Below are positions 5,351 to 25,373 of a DNA stretch of 25,373 bases, piece after piece. The position numbers were made by a program, and so were the translations under genes. The stretch covers positions 1 through 25,373 of the IMG/VR virus record IMGVR_UViG_3300032288_000280. The stretch is one strand, 5' to 3'. How positions within the stretch are numbered: position 1 is the first letter of the stretch; every line of letters starts with the position of its first letter. The notes under the pieces are model-generated. The model saw nothing but the letters and a program-made list of their open reading frames with translations. It was not told where the DNA came from and made no database searches. Origin of the DNA: a virus.

Positions 5351-5736
5351 CGCGCTACGCCTTTAACCTTCTCAAACGTGCGAAGACCGCCGAGGCCTAG
5401 CATGCCGAGCGTCAGGCCCATGAGTGCTTCGACGTTAAAAGACGGAAGCGGAATGGGATTTCCTGCCATCGTCGAAATCCATGTGACGAGCGGGCCGAAA
5501 ACGTAAATAAACGCAAAAGCGAATGTACAAGTCCAACCTAAAGCGGGACGCCATCCAGAAACAAATATCGACGAGTGCTTTGCCTCTTCGATGTTGATGT
5601 CGGTCTGGCCCTTGTCCCAAGCCTGAAGATCACGGCGAAGAGCCTCTTCGGCTTTTATCTTCTCCTGCGGGTCAGGGATGAACTTGTCGATGACCTTCAG
5701 GCCAGCGGCGACAGCGTCTCCGATACCGAACGTCAT
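5347..5736 (-). CDS. Holin, 3TM type related to gene-transfer-agent release holins
   Basis: The protein has 129 aa. A soluble, charged N-terminal half (DKFIPDPQEKIKAEEALRRDLQAW) is followed by SSIFVSGWRPALGWTCTF, which matches the conserved S-WRP-GW signature of the GTA_holin_3TM family. After this come hydrophobic segments (FAFAFIYVFGPLVTWIS and MGLTLGMLGLGGL). It would form inner-membrane lesions that let the muramidase reach the cell wall. It overlaps both neighbours by ATGA junctions (5736-5733 and 5350-5347), placing it in a three-gene lysis cassette with the coiled-coil membrane protein and the endolysin. The number of membrane passes that can be read directly is two to three. Confidence 0.88.
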   Translation of the reverse strand: MTFGIGDAVAAGLKVIDKFIPDPQEKIKAEEALRRDLQAWDKGQTDINIEEAKHSSIFVSGWRPALGWTCTFAFAFIYVFGPLVTWISTMAGNPIPLPSFNVEALMGLTLGMLGLGGLRTFEKVKGVAR

Positions 5737-5966
5737 TTGTCCACCTTCCCGTCGAGCTTGTCGAAAATCTTTATCAGCATGTCTTCAACGCGCCGCATGG
5801 CATCGACGAAGTCGTCCTTGCGAACGTAATGCACTGGAAGGTTGCGCTCGAGCGTGCGGATGTCGTCACGCAGGGCTGCAACCGCATCCCATAGTTGACG
5901 AGCGAACCAGCCTAGAGCGGCAAGGACCGTTCCAATGGCGAAGTTGAGGACGTGCTGCAAGTCCAT
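5733..5966 (-). CDS. Small membrane-anchored coiled-coil protein of the lysis cassette
   Basis: The protein has 77 aa. One N-terminal hydrophobic helix (NFAIGTVLAALGWFARQLW, about residues 8-26) is followed by a heptad-like helix (VAALRDDIRTLERNL) and a second charged helix (DFVDAMRRVEDMLIKIFDKL). This is the build of an inner-membrane spanin-like or holin-partner protein, but no lipobox partner gene was found next to it and no defining family motif is present. A GGAG Shine-Dalgarno lies eight bases before ATG 5966. Its stop overlaps the holin start (ATGA), so it is probably co-made with the holin and affects lysis or its timing. Its function is inferred from position and topology only. Confidence 0.72.
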   Translation of the reverse strand: MDLQHVLNFAIGTVLAALGWFARQLWDAVAALRDDIRTLERNLPVHYVRKDDFVDAMRRVEDMLIKIFDKLDGKVDK

Positions 5967-5981
5967 CGCCGCAACTCCGTG

Positions 5982-6158
5982 TTACTTATGCGGGTCTTCG
6001 CCAAACGGCGGATGCGGCAGCTGCGGGTGGTTCCAATCCTTGATGTAGTCACCAAGACCATCGCTGTCGTTTTGGAGCATGATCTTGCCGCCAAACGGAA
6101 AGAAGTCAGCTTCTGTAAGCTGCTGGTAGTAGTCGCGGATTTGTTCATACAACGTCAT
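5982..6158 (-). CDS. 58-aa small protein, function unknown
   Basis: The ATG at 6158 overlaps the stop of the upstream C1q-like gene as TAATG, and the frame closes with TAA at 5982-5984. The peptide starts MTLYEQIRDYYQQLTEADFF, then has FGGKIMLQNDSDGLGDYIKDW and a Pro/His-rich tail (NHPQLPHPPFGEDPHK). It fills the only gap between the fibre cluster and the lysis cassette. The tight coupled start, the absence of a better frame and a composition like that of a folded protein support it as real. Similar short proteins occur near phage lysis genes, but I cannot name a family. A competing frame at 6148-5912 has a Ser/Arg/Thr-rich, shadow-like composition and overlaps the next gene. Confidence 0.7.
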   Translation of the reverse strand: MTLYEQIRDYYQQLTEADFFPFGGKIMLQNDSDGLGDYIKDWNHPQLPHPPFGEDPHK

Positions 6159-6679
6159 TACACGGCCCTCACTAGAGATGCTTGGAAGTATGTGACGGCT
6201 AATCCAGAAGTGATAGTAATTGTTCCACTTCCACCTATAAAAGCATAAAGCTCTATGTAGTCGGTCGAACCGTTAAAATAAATCAATGCAGAAGCAGTAG
6301 AAAGCAAATTACTTACTCCTGAGCTATCTCTTATGACGGACCCGGCTTTAAATGCCGATCCATTCTTGTAGATGCTACAAAAAATTACAGTGGTGTTTAC
6401 TGACCCGCCGCCACTTACGGCACCATTAACTTGATAATAACCCGCAACCGTAGGAGTGAACCTATAGTTCGTTGTTGGGTCGAAATTGCTGTTTGTGTCA
6501 AACTCTTCTGTATTAATTTGAACTTTCGTTTCTGTTGCTACAGTTATCGTTTGTGATCCATTACGATAAGCACTAAACGCCGGACCAGTGCCAGCCACAC
6601 CAGACGCAACTTTAGGCTGCGACACAGTTCCATTCTGGATCGCATCAATGCCAGTTGTGCCGTCGATTACAACCGTCAT
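6158..6679 (-). CDS. C1q/TNF-like fibre or receptor-binding protein (copy A)
   Basis: The protein has 173 aa. The N-terminus (VVIDGTTGIDAIQNGTVSQPKV) is a short attachment module widely seen in phage fibre proteins. From about residue 31 it has a C1q-like jelly-roll: GPAFSAYRNGSQTI, RFTPTVAGYYQVNGAV, IYKNGSAF, ALIYFNGSTDYIELYAFI, ending in a short LVRAV tail. C1q-like folds form trimers and bind surface ligands, so a receptor-binding role at the tail tip is inferred. It is a paralogue of the product of 7939-8496. Base composition is clearly lower in GC than that of the portal gene. The start ATG overlaps the preceding stop (ATGA at 6679-6676). Confidence 0.8.
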   Translation of the reverse strand: MTVVIDGTTGIDAIQNGTVSQPKVASGVAGTGPAFSAYRNGSQTITVATETKVQINTEEFDTNSNFDPTTNYRFTPTVAGYYQVNGAVSGGGSVNTTVIFCSIYKNGSAFKAGSVIRDSSGVSNLLSTASALIYFNGSTDYIELYAFIGGSGTITITSGLAVTYFQASLVRAV

Positions 6680-6861
6680 GCCTGATCTCCTTCAGCTGGC
6701 TGAATGACGAGCTTGCCTTCAGCGACAAGCGTCATGATGTTCGCGTAGTCCGTGTTCGCGGGGTCGAGCGGGACGAACGAGGTCACGTTGTTGATGTCAA
6801 CTCGGATACCAGTCACCTCATCAGAGATGCTATCTTTTGTGTATTGCGCGTTGCTATACAT
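6676..6861 (-). CDS. Small fibre-cluster protein, function unknown
   Basis: The protein has 61 aa. The start is placed at ATG 6861, two bases after the stop of the fibre gene and downstream of a GGAG-like site within that gene. Upstream in-frame codons would only extend into the fibre coding end. The sequence MYSNAQYTKDSISDEVTGIRVDINNVTSFVPLDPANTDYANIMTLVAEGKLVIQP is typical of short phage proteins in which residues like VPLDPANTDYANIM describe a common tail-fibre accessory pattern. A chaperone or small tip component is possible. It ends in an ATGA overlap with the C1q-like gene, suggesting that the two proteins work as a pair. Confidence 0.72.
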   Translation of the reverse strand: MYSNAQYTKDSISDEVTGIRVDINNVTSFVPLDPANTDYANIMTLVAEGKLVIQPAEGDQA

Positions 6862-6863
6862 GA

Positions 6864-7895
6864 TTAAAGCTCCGCCGCTGATGCCCAAAGGAACTGATAA
6901 TACGCAGCTGTTGACGAAGCATTTGAAGATGGGTCAACGCGGAAATATCCCGTCTGATTTTCGCCAACAGTCGGAGCTGATGAAGGGAAGCCACTTCCAG
7001 ATATTGACGAAAACGATAAAGTAGCTGTTGCACGCTTTGTGACCTTATAGTTTGTTGCCAAATAGTAAGGCGACGAACCGTTCGTATATCCAGACCAAAT
7101 GTTATATCCAGTCTCATAATACCGTTGGCACATAGCCAATTCTTGCGGGTAAAGACGCCGCTCAAATGGTGTGGCGACGGAGCCAACTTCTAGCTGAACG
7201 CCTGTGAGGTAGAAGGTTGCGCCGTTGGTGCCGACAACAGAGACTGCGCCAGTGGGAGCTACATAATTTCCTGCCGTCCAAGCGCCAGCCGTAGTGCTAT
7301 ATGTAGAGCCTGTGCCAATAGAAAAACTGACATTCAAGCCAACGCCTGTTGTCGTTAGCCACGTGCCAGATGTGTCGCCGGGAACAGAGACTGTTTTGTA
7401 TTCCCAAGTATTTGCAGAGCTAATGCTGTAGGAGAAAACATAAGACCGATCAGTGGCGCTATTTCTTATTGAGCCGCCGAATGTCCCAGTCAGGGAAGAG
7501 CGCACCCAAAACGATAGGCTGATAGATTTAGCGCCAGAAGTTCCCCAAGATAAATCCGTAACATTTTGCCCCTCAACCATTTGGCGCATCAAAAAAAAGT
7601 CGCCAGATACAATGCTGTATGATGAGAGAGATGTTAGGATGCAAGAGTTTTTAAAGCCAGTCGGGACTACCGTGCTTTGCTGCACAGAGTACTTGCTTGA
7701 TTGTGAGAGGTCAAAAGCCCAACGGTCCAGCACATAGTTATTTGTTGCCGGAGTAACACTAGCCCCCGCATTACGCTGGTCGATCTCCATCGCGCCGTTG
7801 ATGATCTTATTACGAGCGCCGAGGCTGACCGCAGTTCCTACAGCCGTCCCGTCGTTGAACGTGATGCCGTTCGTGCCGTTAATAGAAACTGCCAT
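6864..7895 (-). CDS. Tail fibre protein with carbohydrate-binding-type jelly-roll
   Basis: The protein has 343 aa. The N-terminal MAVSINGTNGITFNDGT module is shared in style with the C1q-like protein at 6158-6679. RNKIINGAMEIDQRNAG followed by YVLDRWAF (residues about 28-59) is the signature of a widespread phage tail-fibre family with a carbohydrate-binding, CBM-like beta-sandwich. The middle is beta-rich (LSFWVRSSLTGTFGGSI, YVFSYSISSANTWEYKTVSVPG, FYLTGVQLEVGSVATPFERR). The segment LEVGSVATPFERRLYPQELAMCQRYYE is a hallmark of the end of this domain, and the C-terminal domain may bind the receptor. It lies between two C1q-like genes and is probably a receptor-binding fibre of the tail. Confidence 0.85.
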   Translation of the reverse strand: MAVSINGTNGITFNDGTAVGTAVSLGARNKIINGAMEIDQRNAGASVTPATNNYVLDRWAFDLSQSSKYSVQQSTVVPTGFKNSCILTSLSSYSIVSGDFFLMRQMVEGQNVTDLSWGTSGAKSISLSFWVRSSLTGTFGGSIRNSATDRSYVFSYSISSANTWEYKTVSVPGDTSGTWLTTTGVGLNVSFSIGTGSTYSTTAGAWTAGNYVAPTGAVSVVGTNGATFYLTGVQLEVGSVATPFERRLYPQELAMCQRYYETGYNIWSGYTNGSSPYYLATNYKVTKRATATLSFSSISGSGFPSSAPTVGENQTGYFRVDPSSNASSTAAYYQFLWASAAEL

Positions 7896-7938
7896 CTTCA
7901 GCCTCGATCGTTCGCGTTAATAAACACACAGCATATCA

Positions 7939-8496
7939 TCACGCAGCCCTCACTAAGCAGCCTGAAAGTTGGCACGCAACGCCGGAAGAGTTGTAGTCAA
8001 ACGATGGGCTTGTCGCTGTTATGAAGCCGTATAGCTCAACGTAGTCGGTTGAACCATTAAGATAAATCAAACCGGATACAGCGTTCGCCAAACCTGAAAT
8101 GCCTGTGTTCACTACAGTATTTGATGCGGTGTAGATTGTGCCATTTTTGTAAATAGCTGCACTTGTTGCGGTTACGTTGTTGCTCGCTGATACACCACGC
8201 ACAACACCATTAAACTGATAGTAGCCAGCCACAGTTGGTGTGAAGCGGCTGCTTGCAAAGCAATTATTAGTATCGAAAATTTCATTTCCAAGCGTAACTT
8301 TTGTCCACGTCGAAGACGTTACGCTTTGGTCTACCGTGCTTTCTGCCATGAACGCCGGACCATTCCCTGCGAACGTGGAGCCAGTCGAAATCAGAGTGCC
8401 GCTGTTGTCTGGCAACTCAAGGACACGGTTTGATGCGGTGTTCGGCTCATTCAACGTGATGGAGCCACCGCCAGCGGAATTGAGAACAATAGACAT
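7939..8496 (-). CDS. C1q/TNF-like fibre or receptor-binding protein (copy B)
   Basis: The protein has 185 aa from ATG 8496, which overlaps the upstream stop as TGATG. The N-terminal module is SIVLNSAGGGSITLNEP...LELPDNSGTLIST, a phage fibre attachment pattern different from that of copy A. The C1q-like domain follows from about residue 45: GPAFMAESTVDQSV, RFTPTVAGYYQFNGVV, AIYKNGTIY, GLIYLNGSTDYVELYGF, then a CLVRAA end. The core lines up with copy A over most of its length, so the same domain has been attached to two different N-terminal modules. A homotrimeric receptor-binding role is inferred. The 43-base gap after its stop holds only the ribosome-binding region of the next fibre gene. Confidence 0.8.
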   Translation of the reverse strand: MSIVLNSAGGGSITLNEPNTASNRVLELPDNSGTLISTGSTFAGNGPAFMAESTVDQSVTSSTWTKVTLGNEIFDTNNCFASSRFTPTVAGYYQFNGVVRGVSASNNVTATSAAIYKNGTIYTASNTVVNTGISGLANAVSGLIYLNGSTDYVELYGFITATSPSFDYNSSGVACQLSGCLVRAA

Positions 8497-9032
8497 CAGA
8501 CAACCACCCAACGTGAGCCAGTGGGAACAGTGACAACCACGCCAGAATTGACCGTGATCGGCCCTGCTGACATTGCGTTGCTATTTGACGAGAGCGTGTA
8601 GCTGGCCGTGACGGTCTGACCGTTCTCGTAGAAGATCGCGTTACCGCCAGCGCCAGACGCGCCGCCGAGAGAACCCCACGACGAACCGTTGTAGCCTTCA
8701 AAGCGGTTGATCGTCGTGTTGAAGCGGAACATGCCGGCAGACGGAGACCCGCTCTTCTGAGCGTCCGTGCCAGCCGGAACCTTGATCTGGCCGGTTCCAG
8801 ACATGGTCAGGTCTACAGACGACGTAAACGTGCCAGTGACAGCTAATGTGCCACCTACTGAAAGCGTCTTTGCTGATCCAACATTCAACCCGACCGACGT
8901 GCCTGTGCCGTCCGTCTTGAAGACGAGGTCTACTGCGGTCAGATCTGAGTTAAGCTTCGTCCCCCAAGTGTCACGGCTTGCGCCGACCTCGGGGAGCGTC
9001 AGGTTAAGATACGGGGTATAACTGTCTGCCAT
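8496..9032 (-). CDS. Short tail fibre protein
   Basis: The protein has 178 aa. The N-terminal YTPYLNLTLPEVGASRDTWG pattern is a very common opening of phage tail-fibre proteins and probably anchors to the tail. A beta-rich stalk follows (SVGGTLAVTGTFTSSVDLTMSGTGQIKVP), then the module PSAGMFRFNTTINRFEGYNGSSWGSLGG. The C-terminal residues ENGQTVTASYTLSSNSNAMSAGPITVNSGVVVTVP are a recurring fibre end module. It is likely to be a trimeric beta-helical appendage. Its stop overlaps the next start (TGATG). Host-binding specificity cannot be read from the sequence. Confidence 0.85.
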   Translation of the reverse strand: MADSYTPYLNLTLPEVGASRDTWGTKLNSDLTAVDLVFKTDGTGTSVGLNVGSAKTLSVGGTLAVTGTFTSSVDLTMSGTGQIKVPAGTDAQKSGSPSAGMFRFNTTINRFEGYNGSSWGSLGGASGAGGNAIFYENGQTVTASYTLSSNSNAMSAGPITVNSGVVVTVPTGSRWVVV

Positions 9033-22163: not shown

Positions 22164-22333
22164 GGGGGTCAAGGGGGGTCTGCACAGTTTTCAACTTTTA
22201 GTTTTTTTTGAGCGAGCCTTACGTTTTGAAGCACCACCCGTAGGGGGGGTCTCCTGTGGTTTTTCGCCCGTATAGAGAGCGGTAGGTGACGCCGAAACCG
22301 CCCCCGCCGGGGTGGCCCTGCCGGGGGGGTCTG
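22164..22333. repeat. Three AGACCCCCC repeats at the end of terS, possible packaging-site element
   Basis: On the plus strand GGGGGGTCT occurs at 22173-22181, 22244-22252 and 22324-22332, with spacings of 71 and 80 bases, and a partial GGGGGTC at 22164-22170. Two copies lie inside terS, one in the gap after it. C-run/G-run repeats this close in the terS region are unusual. Small terminase binding sites (pac or cos) commonly lie in or next to terS, so this is a candidate recognition element. Confidence 0.4.
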
Positions 22334-22871
22334 CGGCATCGACCACAAGCACGGCATCGATCGCCGGCTGCGGAGCATCCAGCCTTTCACCTGAAAAGGT
22401 TGGATCGTTAGTGATATCAATAGCTTGGCCCTCGATGTACCCGAGATCGTTACCCGAACGCCTGTTCGACAGTGCGCGCAGCGCATCGAGATGCAGCTGA
22501 TGCGTGTGCGTGACGTTCGCCTCGACGATCTGTTTGTCGCCGTAAACCTTTGGCAACAAACGAGAAGCCACCCATTTCATGCCGTCGATCGCCACGCGTG
22601 CCACGTCAGGAGGCAGCTCACCTGACTTAACCTGTTGAATTGTAAGTGAAATTTCCTCTGCGTGATGGATCGCACGCGATTGGATCGCGCGCGCATACTT
22701 ATCGCGGAAGTCCTCTTCCGCGTGCATCCACCGCCATATCGTCGCGTGATCCGGCATGTCGTCATCCTTCGACACGCTCAACAAAGATCGACCACTGGCA
22801 ATCCTGATGCATATCTCGTCGATCAGCTCCGGCGTCCGTTTCGACGGCCTTCCGATCTTCGCTTCACTCAC
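22191..22871 (-). CDS. terS: Terminase small subunit (Sf6 gp1-like)
   Basis: The protein has 226 aa. IGRPSKRTPELIDEICIRIASGRSLLSVSKDDDMPDHATIWRWM (residues 6-49) is a helix-turn-helix DNA-binding segment that matches small terminase subunits of the Sf6 type. A helical core (DKYARAIQSRAIHHAEEISLTIQQV, VARVAIDGMKWVASRLLPKVYG) follows and would form the oligomeric ring. The C-terminus is low complexity and ends in Lys-rich residues (GASKRKARSKKTK). The ATG overlaps the previous stop as ATGA. It recognises phage DNA for packaging and recruits the large subunit. The last third contains the GGGGGGTCT repeats and a run of eight A. Confidence 0.9.
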   Translation of the reverse strand: MSEAKIGRPSKRTPELIDEICIRIASGRSLLSVSKDDDMPDHATIWRWMHAEEDFRDKYARAIQSRAIHHAEEISLTIQQVKSGELPPDVARVAIDGMKWVASRLLPKVYGDKQIVEANVTHTHQLHLDALRALSNRRSGNDLGYIEGQAIDITNDPTFSGERLDAPQPAIDAVLVVDAADPPGRATPAGAVSASPTALYTGEKPQETPPTGGASKRKARSKKTKS

Positions 22872-23071
22872 TGCTTCGGTCTCCCCTTCATTCGCAGGCT
22901 TGGGAACCAGATAAGTTTCTGTTCGACCCTAACCTTGTATGTCTTGCCATTGTTGGTGACGGCGATGAACCGCACAGCAGGTTGCTCGTCGTCTGTCAGG
23001 TATTCATCCATGACATCGGCCAGAAGACCGTCCTCGTCGATCTCTGGCCCATCAGAACGGGATTTCATCAT
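22868..23071 (-). CDS. Small acidic protein, function unknown
   Basis: The protein has 67 aa. The first or second of two tandem ATGs (23071 or 23068) is the start; GAAGGG precedes them. The front part is acidic (DGPEIDEDGLLADVMDEYLTDDEQP), then a beta pattern AVRFIAVTNNGKTYKVRVEQKLIWFP and a basic end. It overlaps the preceding gene by 20 bases and the terS start by ATGA. The name cannot be given; a small regulator or accessory of packaging is possible. Confidence 0.66.
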   Translation of the reverse strand: MMKSRSDGPEIDEDGLLADVMDEYLTDDEQPAVRFIAVTNNGKTYKVRVEQKLIWFPSLRMKGRPKQ

Positions 23072-23597
23072 TCAGACCCTTCGCATCTTTCACGCTCTCG
23101 ACTGTCGCGCCGGGGAACAGGCTCTTCGTTTCGCTGATGACCCTGTTCGCCTGAAACTCATCCCACACTAGCAGCAGCTCGGCCAGCGTGACGACGTGCG
23201 CTGGATCGGCTGCGTCCTTGGCAACCTTACTCACGTCGGCCCGATCGAGGCAGACCGTGTATGTCGTGCCTCGATGTTTCGCTGACCAGACGACTTCGGG
23301 ATATGTCTTATGCCCGGCTTCGGTAGCCGCCTTGTCGAGCGCCTGCCATCCACGGATCAGGACTGCCGCCTTACTGACGACAGCATCGAGATCGTTGTCG
23401 CGGATTGCGTCGTTCAGCTTCTCTCGGGCCGACGAGAACTTCGCGGCCATGTCGGGCGGCACCAACCTCTGAAGTCTTCCGACGCCCCACTTTCCTTCCA
23501 TCTCGACTGCAACCCGATCGAGCGGCTCGAGCGCATCTTGCACTGGCCCTCTGTCGATCGGCAGCGGCATCATCGCCCTCTCCATCACCCTTCCCAT
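23052..23597 (-). CDS. Unknown protein ending in an SSB-like acidic tip
   Basis: The protein has 181 aa from ATG 23597. A better-placed alternative is the ATG at 23573, which follows GGAGAGG by six bases and would shorten the N-terminus by eight residues. The helical part (AKFSSAREKLNDAIRDNDLDAVVSKAAVLIRGWQALDKAA) is followed by a beta-rich end (YPEVVWSAKHRGTTYTVCLDRADV). The last eight residues are GLNDEIPF, matching the acidic Asp/Glu-Ile-Pro-Phe tip through which bacterial and phage SSB proteins recruit partners. No OB-fold is evident. It lies next to the helicase gene and the TGTCCG cluster, so a replication role is inferred. Confidence 0.72.
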   Translation of the reverse strand: MGRVMERAMMPLPIDRGPVQDALEPLDRVAVEMEGKWGVGRLQRLVPPDMAAKFSSAREKLNDAIRDNDLDAVVSKAAVLIRGWQALDKAATEAGHKTYPEVVWSAKHRGTTYTVCLDRADVSKVAKDAADPAHVVTLAELLLVWDEFQANRVISETKSLFPGATVESVKDAKGLNDEIPF

Positions 23598-23613
23598 TTC
23601 TACCCCCGTTTAA

Positions 23614-23774
23614 ATCCGGACACTCGGACACTTCCTAGTGTTGTGTCCGTGTCCGTCCGGATATTTAACAACGCATGAACTTGTCCGGATAAATGTCCGG
23701 TAAATGTCCGAACTTCCTAAGCATCTGAAATCCAACACCATTTCGCCCACATACTTATATGTCCGGCTTGTCCG
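23614..23774. repeat. TGTCCG repeat cluster with a long interrupted hairpin
   Basis: TGTCCG occurs seven times on the plus strand (starts 23644, 23650, 23682, 23694, 23705, 23760 and 23769) and CGGACA twice (23617, 23625). Three copies at 23682-23710 are spaced by 12 and 11 bases, about one helical turn. ATCCGGAC (23614-23621) pairs with GTCCGGAT (23655-23662), and CGGACAC (23625-23631) pairs with GTGTCCG (23643-23649). It fills the gap between the helicase and the next gene and enters the helicase end. It looks like a protein-binding array, such as origin iterons or an operator. Confidence 0.65.
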
Positions 23775-25373
23775 AGCTTAGGCACCTCGCGCTCGAACGT
23801 CCGACGCGCGCTGTCGCCCTGTAAATGGGTCATCGTGTCGAAATATGTGCGCCACACGTCGACATTGACGACCTTCTGATGCGGCGGGATTTGGTCTAAT
23901 CCGACCTGTTTTCCCTGCTCCTGAATAGCCATCGCCAGCGCATCGAGCAGCACCTTCTGGTTGCCTGACGCCCGCTTCCGCTTCTTCGGCTGATGTGTCT
24001 CGTTGAGCGGATGCACGACGAGCGACGTTGCGTCTGGATCGAGCGGGCTGACGTGCATGAGGTCGAGCCGGAACGACCACGAGAGGCCATCCATGCCGTC
24101 CTTTTGCTTGGTCGACTTGACCGTGCAGACGGGTTCCTCGGCATCGTCGTCGGAGATGCGCGTCAACTCTAGCTCTGCATCGACGGCAGCGAGGAGCGCC
24201 GACGAGCCACGCATGCCCCTGCTCTCGTCCTTGCCTGTGTGATGGACGACGCAAACCGTGCAATCGAGCGCGTCCTGTAGCGCCGCCATGACGGAGACGA
24301 ACTGCATCATCTCTGCCGACGAGTTCTCCTCGCCGCCGGCATAGGCACGCGCCAGCGTATCGACGAAGATCACGGCAGGCTTGATGCCGCGTTCACGGAT
24401 CACCTCGATCAGCGCCGTGAGGTCGTCGAGGCTGCTGCGAAGGTTCATCTGCGCCTTCACGAAGTGCACTGGCAGATCGTCGGGGAGGTCGTACCGCTGC
24501 ATGAGCGCATCACGTCTGCGCCGCAGGCCAGCACCGCCCTCGAGCGCCAGATAGACGACATCGCCCTGCTCGACGCTGCACGAGAATGCTTCGCGTCCTG
24601 CTGCAACCATTGCCGCTAAATACATGGCAAAGAACGACTTTCCTGCGCCTGACTTGCCATAGATTGCGGAGAATGACTTCGCCGGGAGCATGTCCTTAAC
24701 CAGCCACTTGACCTTCACGTCTTGGAGGTCGTGCCACGGGACGAGGTCGATGCGGCGTTTCGTTTGTTGCGTTTGCTCGACCTGTACTGGTTGCTGCACA
24801 GGTTGCGCCGGCTGCTGGCCCGACAACATGGCGATCTGGTCCATAAGTCTCGGCTGCTTCGGCAGGACAGCACGCGCTGCGGCCTTCCGATCGCCGTTGT
24901 GGTCGAACACGGCGACGAGGTCGAACGGATCGCTGACCTTGTTCGACAGCGGATCGGCAGCGCCATGATGCGAGAATACGCACCAATCGCCACGGGAGCC
25001 GCGAAACACGACGACGCCGGGAGTGCCGCTTTCCGAACCGGGCCGGATGTAGCGGTATTTGTCGCCTTCCTTGAAGACGAACTTATAGCCTTCGCTTTCA
25101 AGCTTCGATCGGACCCACTCGAGGCCATGCGCCTTGTTGAAGGCGTCGATGTCGCCGGACGGTCTTTCATTTGAAAAATTTGGCGCAATTAATTTCTGCT
25201 CGACCTGTTCGCGCTTCTGCCTCTCCTTCGCCCACGCCATCGCCTCGTTGATTGGGAAGGCGTGACCGTCCTCGTTCACTTCGCACAGGAAGGCGTCAGG
25301 CTGCTCGACGCGCGGGAGATACCAAGGCTGCGACCATTTCGAGTTCTCGGTCACGTCGGACAGCCAGACGCCG
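23717..25373 (-). CDS. RepA/KaiC-like replicative helicase with primase-type N-terminal region (5' partial)
   Basis: At least 545 aa are visible from a GTG at 25354, but the frame is open to the window edge, so the true N-terminus is probably outside. Residues 60-165 (from GTG; FVFKEGDKYRYIRPGSESGTPGVVVF, WCVFSHHGAADPLS, DPFDLVAVFDHNGD) resemble the region before the helicase in phage primase-helicase proteins. The AAA_25 ATPase core has IYGKSGAGKS (231-240, Walker A), VVYLALEGG (266-274), VIFVDTLAR (328-336, Walker B) and HHTGK (371-375), with RGMRGSSALLAAVD following. The C-terminal part has a winged-helix-like pattern. It would unwind phage DNA. Downstream of its stop is the TGTCCG cluster. 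Confidence 0.85.
   Translation of the reverse strand, partial: GVWLSDVTENSKWSQPWYLPRVEQPDAFLCEVNEDGHAFPINEAMAWAKERQKREQVEQKLIAPNFSNERPSGDIDAFNKAHGLEWVRSKLESEGYKFVFKEGDKYRYIRPGSESGTPGVVVFRGSRGDWCVFSHHGAADPLSNKVSDPFDLVAVFDHNGDRKAAARAVLPKQPRLMDQIAMLSGQQPAQPVQQPVQVEQTQQTKRRIDLVPWHDLQDVKVKWLVKDMLPAKSFSAIYGKSGAGKSFFAMYLAAMVAAGREAFSCSVEQGDVVYLALEGGAGLRRRRDALMQRYDLPDDLPVHFVKAQMNLRSSLDDLTALIEVIRERGIKPAVIFVDTLARAYAGGEENSSAEMMQFVSVMAALQDALDCTVCVVHHTGKDESRGMRGSSALLAAVDAELELTRISDDDAEEPVCTVKSTKQKDGMDGLSWSFRLDLMHVSPLDPDATSLVVHPLNETHQPKKRKRASGNQKVLLDALAMAIQEQGKQVGLDQIPPHQKVVNVDVWRTYFDTMTHLQGDSARRTFEREVPKLGQAGHISMWAKWCWISDA

Follow-up and report, generated by a model that had tools for sequence, protein, structure and literature searches.

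The window analysed here is the whole 25,373-nucleotide stretch of IMG/VR virus record IMGVR_UViG_3300032288_000280. At its far end it carries a primase-helicase gene on the minus strand, immediately followed by a dense array of the hexamer CGGACA (TGTCCG on the plus strand), a hairpin with inverted copies of the same word, the gene of a 181-aa protein and, two genes from the array, a small terminase gene (Table 1). Elsewhere in the window, at about 5500-8500, G+C falls to 0.48-0.50, compared with 0.55-0.60 around it, and this segment was perhaps acquired.

Table 1. Features of the array region, in window coordinates.
Feature	Position	Strand	Basis
RepA-fold primase-helicase gene	23717..25372	-	AAA_25 6e-40; PHROG families; Foldseek RSF1010 RepA
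Helicase C-terminal winged-helix domain, proposed iteron reader	23720..24010	-	AlphaFold of L004 homologue; divergence from L011/L020
Proposed recognition helix, SARRTFEREVPKLGQAG region	23768..23818	-	Residues aligned to positions co-varying with iteron in relatives
Iteron CGGACA 1, direct, within helicase ORF	23769..23774	-	Exact match
Iteron CGGACA 2, direct, within helicase ORF	23760..23765	-	Exact match
Iteron CGGACA 3, direct	23705..23710	-	Exact match
Iteron CGGACA 4, direct	23694..23699	-	Exact match
Iteron CGGACA 5, direct	23682..23687	-	Exact match
A+T-rich spacer (about 70% A+T) between direct iterons and hairpin	23663..23681	.	Base composition; possible melting site, as we infer
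Iteron CGGACA 6, hairpin arm	23650..23655	-	Exact match, inverted-repeat analysis
Iteron CGGACA 7, hairpin arm	23644..23649	-	Exact match, inverted-repeat analysis
Inverted iteron, opposite hairpin arm	23625..23630	+	Exact match, inverted-repeat analysis
Inverted iteron, opposite hairpin arm	23617..23622	+	Exact match, inverted-repeat analysis
Interrupted hairpin, apex ACACTAGGAAGTGT on minus strand, inverted iterons at both flanks	23614..23662	.	Inverted repeats
Hairpin outer 8-bp arms ATCCGGAC/GTCCGGAT	23614-23621/23655-23662	.	Inverted repeats
181-aa protein gene, often directly downstream of array in relatives	23052..23597	-	Family membership
Small terminase gene terS (Sf6-like)	22191-22871		PHROG/profile matches; two genes from array

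Nine exact copies of TGTCCG or its complement lie within 158 bp (23617-23774), with TGTCCG on the plus strand at 23644, 23650, 23682, 23694, 23705, 23760 and 23769 and on the minus strand at 23617 and 23625, compared with 8 copies in the other 25.2 kb. The window total of 17 matches the chance expectation (16.2 +/- 3.6), and it is therefore the clustering alone that is unusual: at the window's own background rate, the probability of at least nine copies in 160 bp is about 6e-18, and no other hexamer of the window clusters as densely (9 copies vs 6 for the next). The first-pass annotation had described nine copies, three of them with 11-12-base spacing, and a two-part inverted repeat at 23614-23662, all of which our counts reproduce, the copies at 23682, 23694 and 23705 being 12 and 11 bp apart and both the outer 8-bp arms and an inner inverted repeat being present. 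Its description of the gap as non-coding holds for 23598-23716 only: with the helicase stop (TAG) at 23717, two of the nine copies, at 23760 and 23769, fall within the last codons of the helicase. It had also named equal density elsewhere, or absence from close relatives, as grounds for dismissing the array. Across ten contigs, hexamer density is 30-50 per kb inside the arrays vs 0.03-0.67 per kb elsewhere, and close relatives do carry the array.

Comparison of 20 IMG/VR contigs with close helicases located the array at the same place and with the same layout in nearly all those extending past the helicase. In this layout, the end of the gene contains two copies, three more follow in direct orientation at 11-12-bp spacing, and beyond an A+T-rich spacer two direct and two inverted copies surround the hairpin. 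A nucleotide search of phage records gave one weak match only. Four relatives keep the layout with another word, which is CGGGACA in L011 and L012, GGGGACA in L015 and CGTGACA in L020. The window and L011, which differ by CGGACA and CGGGACA, are 94% identical in the helicase core and 37% in the C-terminal domain, while the corresponding values for L008 and L020, which differ by CGGACA and CGTGACA, are 98% and 27%; the C-terminus of the window is itself 37% and 27% identical to those of L011 and L020, despite cores that are 93-94% identical. On these alignments, the iteron word evidently changes together with the C-terminal domain of the helicase in both pairs.

Some of these relatives present peculiarities of their own. 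L009 and L013 mix CGGACA and CGGATA in the array (about 6590-6745 in L009), and their helix has RRTFELHV in place of RRTFEREV, as if a change of specificity were in progress. L018 (about 2420-2492) is without an iteron array and has a hairpin, GCCGGCCCTAGAGGGCCGGC, between TTCGGAC and GTCCGAA, inside the helicase ORF, whose 3' end is extended. Both L015 and L018 are 76-80% identical to the window in the N-terminal part and only 51-54% in the helicase domain, a pattern that points to domain shuffling inside the helicase gene.

The helicase gene comprises 551 codons in the window, its N-terminus lying past the window edge, and encodes about 713-725 aa in relatives. Its product matches AAA_25 (6e-40) and the PHROG DNA polymerase/primase and helicase families, and the best Foldseek structures for the motor are those of RSF1010 RepA (1olo/1nlf/1g8y). 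The N-terminal domain of relatives shows invariant D-G-D and H/K/R positions, Pfam Prim-Pol being matched by 5 and Toprim by 2 of the 37 relatives; from the motifs only, we read this domain in the window clade as a probable archaeo-eukaryotic-type (AEP-like) primase. At the other end of the protein, the AlphaFold model of the L004 homologue (mean pLDDT 82.5) displays a helix-helix-helix-strand-strand succession (H632-648, H666-676, H681-697, E701-704 and E707-710, with pLDDT mostly 88-96), and residues 632-710 are thus predicted to fit the winged-helix pattern. The primase-like region, the helicase and the winged helix-turn-helix (wHTH) are all found within one ORF.

The relationship between the C-terminal domain and the repeat was resolved to individual residues in a set of 54 loci where the word, of the form CGNN(A/C)C, could be compared and the recognition helix identified. 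Glutamine two residues before a conserved phenylalanine coincides with CGTGACA in 10 cases, with two CGTGACA loci lacking it and one locus having it with another word; the hypergeometric probability of this association (3e-8) somewhat overstates the evidence, because the pattern was noticed before testing, and the sequences of the set share ancestry. At the same position, lysine or arginine is paired with CGGGACA, threonine or methionine with CGTCACA and mostly lysine with CGTTACC, whereas CGTTCCC goes with threonine then histidine in the recognition helix. Mutual information between bases 3-4 and the helix peaks two residues before the phenylalanine and one after it (z about 11 and 9), all other positions remaining below 4. 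Each trait changed about 11-12 times on the helicase-core tree, and the closest sister pairs differ in both, such as L242 (RQAFKR, CGTGACA) and L272 (RTAFMR, CGTCACA); these pairs are a stronger argument for a code than the hypergeometric value. Two loci fetched later fit the same rule, a Xanthobacter plasmid (RRKAFKR, CGGGACA) and phage RHph_X2_25, a relative of 16-3 (KRQRFNR, CGTGACA). A trivial co-variation of protein and motif caused by the overlap of array and gene was ruled out by counting copies strictly after the stop codon, where 53 of the 54 loci keep at least four, L189 being the exception. Specificity in this protein-DNA pair appears, as far as sequences can tell, to be set by a few residues. 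Beyond the words of the CG..ACA type, L326 (E. coli p1RM9154-C1) and L196, from different hosts, share the word AAGTGAG and similar helix residues, suggesting that the code may reach further.

To assess how widespread the arrangement is, profile searches added 80 viral loci, 80 loci from bacterial genomes and then 100 further viral loci, of which, after reduction at 90% identity, 188 (phages, prophages and satellites) had enough downstream sequence; gene ends for all counts quoted were set by a profile-based choice of ORF. In 105 of the 188 loci (56%), a single 7-mer is present at least five times within the 350 bp that follow the helicase stop, compared with none of 834 other gene ends of the same loci, and the helicase-end window (-100 to +350) is the most repetitive of its locus in 122 of the 188. 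The repeated word differs by lineage (among others CGGACA, CGGGACA, CGTGACA, CGTCACA, CAAATGG, GTCCGAA, GGTCAAA, ACGGAAT, ATCAGAA, GTATGCA and CGTTACC), with about 15 copies of CGTGACA in Rhizobium phage 16-3 and about 11 of CTACAAA in Roseobacter phage CRP-811. Arrays also follow the helicase gene in an E. coli phage-plasmid and in four circular plasmid records with phage genes or an integrase; these records may carry other replicons. By the exact 7-mer test, about 28-44% of the helicases in the set have no clear array; none was found in MW202711 or Caulobacter phage GB2A, and the layout is therefore not universal. Three actinobacteriophages examined (Gordonia phage Upyo, Mycobacterium phage Dove and corynephage phi673) are also without it.

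The hairpin is kept along with the repeats. A perfect stem of at least 5 bp lies between an iteron and an inverted copy in 105 of 119 arrays, compared with 10% of shuffled middles, its sequence varying by lineage and its apex being often CTTTAG, CTATAG or CTTAAG. The apex CAACACTAGGAAGTGT (23628-23643 in the window) recurs identically in L152, a Roseovarius genome locus with different iterons. Being GC-rich in many relatives and placed just after a gene, the hairpin might be taken for an intrinsic transcription terminator beside incidental repeats, but of 107 hairpins only 1 has a T-run behind it (at least 6 T in 9 nt), that of the window has none, and inverted iterons flank the stem in nearly all arrays; lacking T-runs, the terminator reading was rejected as highly improbable.

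The 181-aa protein is a member of an undescribed family that adjoins the array downstream in 106 of 255 loci (the window and 105 others), including those of very divergent phages. It has no match in PHROGs or NCBIfam, and its matches are uncharacterised phage proteins only, plus one entry named terminase small subunit. Its model (pLDDT 85) predicts a helical N-terminus and a small alpha/beta part, with no recognisable DNA-binding fold. The frequent adjacency of this family could mean that the 181-aa protein, or else a repressor, is the regulator that binds the array; this is very unlikely given that model, the lack of a family member next to the array of Rhizobium phage 16-3 and to most arrays of bacterial genomes, and the fact that the recognition helix of the helicase alone tracks iteron variation. 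The same observations separate the two binders put forward by the first-pass annotation, favouring the helicase over the 181-aa protein.

With a terS gene two genes away, the array might alternatively be a pac or cos site at which the small terminase recognises DNA for packaging; such sites do often bear repeats. Yet a terS-like ORF occurs in the fetched flank of only 37 of 117 array loci and in 0 of 39 in bacterial genomes, and the iteron co-varies with the helix of the helicase; with no such ORF near any of those 39 arrays, this reading was rejected as largely refuted, and we give it scarcely any probability. At the array, the GC skew of the longer relatives shows no change of sign; it is monotonic across contigs and uninformative either way.

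Taken together, multiple short repeats adjoin the presumed initiator gene and stand immediately 3' of it, in the order of a direct set, a short A+T-rich spacer and iterons in hairpin arms; a 20-nt stretch adjoining the hairpin has 70% A+T. The array is very probably the replication origin of the phage, and the gene just upstream of it would supply the reader of its iterons, the C-terminal winged helix of a RepA-type (RecA-fold, SF4) primase-helicase. This account, the simplest, predicts where the array lies, that it is conserved, that its word differs by lineage and that the word is linked to the C-terminal domain. An origin iteron cluster had been one of two guesses in the first-pass annotation and gains support from the association of the array with the helicase gene rather than with adjoining genes in very divergent elements, and from its co-variation with the recognition helix; an operator, the other guess, is less likely for an array lying 3' of the gene and followed by different downstream genes.

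Co-variation shows recognition, not its outcome, and the winged helix might instead bind the array mainly for the control of copy number or expression (autoregulation, iteron handcuffing), with initiation elsewhere. Plasmid iterons also control copy number, and in L005 (6659-7148), L019 (4851-5340) and L010 (6773-7142) the array is followed at once by a separate ORF of about 90 aa, similar to the C-terminal winged helix of the helicase and possibly a competitor or regulator at the origin. We nevertheless consider a purely regulatory role unlikely: the array stands 3' of the helicase gene; different genes come next, which leaves no shared promoter as a target; lineages retain the hairpin and its inverted iterons; and extrachromosomal phage-plasmids carry both helicase gene and array.

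If the array is the origin, the helicase would dock both on the direct iterons and on the inverted ones that flank the hairpin. Melting of the A+T-rich spacer or of the hairpin would allow it to be loaded, and there its N-terminal primase domain (AEP-like in the window clade) would prime, the winged helix and the iterons evolving as one unit. A more speculative generalisation, to which we give a little less than even weight, is that tailed phages and their satellites harbour widespread one-protein replicons in which primase, RepA-fold helicase and origin reader are fused. In these, the winged helix and the 3' iterons would be exchanged together as a specificity cassette, a code from amino acid to base could be read from them, the primase domain would begin synthesis at the hairpin, and stand-alone winged-helix paralogues would act as competitors or copy-number controllers.

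For most phages, to our knowledge, neither the origin nor the specificity of the initiator has been established. On the origin reading, the start site could be read from sequence in more than 100 phages, prophages and phage-plasmids, and many phage origins would now be predictable; the helix-iteron pairs would provide a natural series of specificity changes, and predict which co-infecting elements could use each other's origins.

Several known systems work in a similar manner. According to PMC7581432, which cites Ubeda 2007, the Rep of SaPIs binds iterons directly downstream of rep via its C-terminal domain. Gram-negative PICIs have the same organisation of initiator then iterons, which their authors consider to be shared by no other known bacterial replicon, and the rep-ori of EcCICFT073 drives plasmid maintenance (PMC6092414). 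The resemblance to the window comprises an initiator helicase gene immediately followed by an iteron array, the proposed origin, in the position of the SaPI/PICI Rep-ori, proposed C-terminal recognition and iterons that vary between elements (PMC7581432, PMC6092414). Unlike in SaPIs and PICIs, the array of the window ends in a hairpin flanked by inverted iterons. The Rep helicases of SaPIs are related to the DUF927 and Primase_Cterm families (PMC7581432), whereas the proposed initiator of the window falls outside them, with an AAA_25 motor of RecA fold nearest to RSF1010 RepA; the layout called unique to PICIs (PMC6092414) would thus extend to a different helicase family. In SCCmec, the direct repeats bound by the Cch2 helicase closely follow its operon, with inverted repeats nearby, but this helicase belongs to another family, has only three iterons and works with separate primase subunits (PMC7581432).

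With respect to its motor, the window is closest to RSF1010, whose oriV shares with it the RepA fold (a fold match in the window), iterons, and hairpins that RSF1010 uses for priming. The alpha helicase of phage P4 is of another family than that of the window. Alpha likewise combines a primase, a helicase and a winged helix binding origin repeats, its primase being of the Toprim type, while helicase, primase and iteron binder are three proteins in RSF1010 (RepA, RepB' and RepC; PMC4234260) and apparently fused in one ORF in the window. For primase proteins that contain a helicase of the RepA or another type, a winged helix has been suggested as the origin recogniser (PMC5862659); in the open-access literature, to which our survey was confined, we found no description of iterons after RepA-fold phage helicases. 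Replication of pRN1 needs a stem-loop directly 3' of the primase-helicase gene ORF904, and phage BIP-1 was proposed as a phage example of this type (PMC4234260). As in the window, primase, helicase and winged helix are in one protein and a stem-loop lies 3' of its gene, but the helicase is of SF3, the stem-loop is large and, according to the authors, there are no iterons (PMC4234260), in contrast to the AAA_25 motor and iterons of the window. It is the RepA-fold motor that sets the system of the window apart from those of SaPIs and PICIs, SCCmec and pRN1, despite their similar working.
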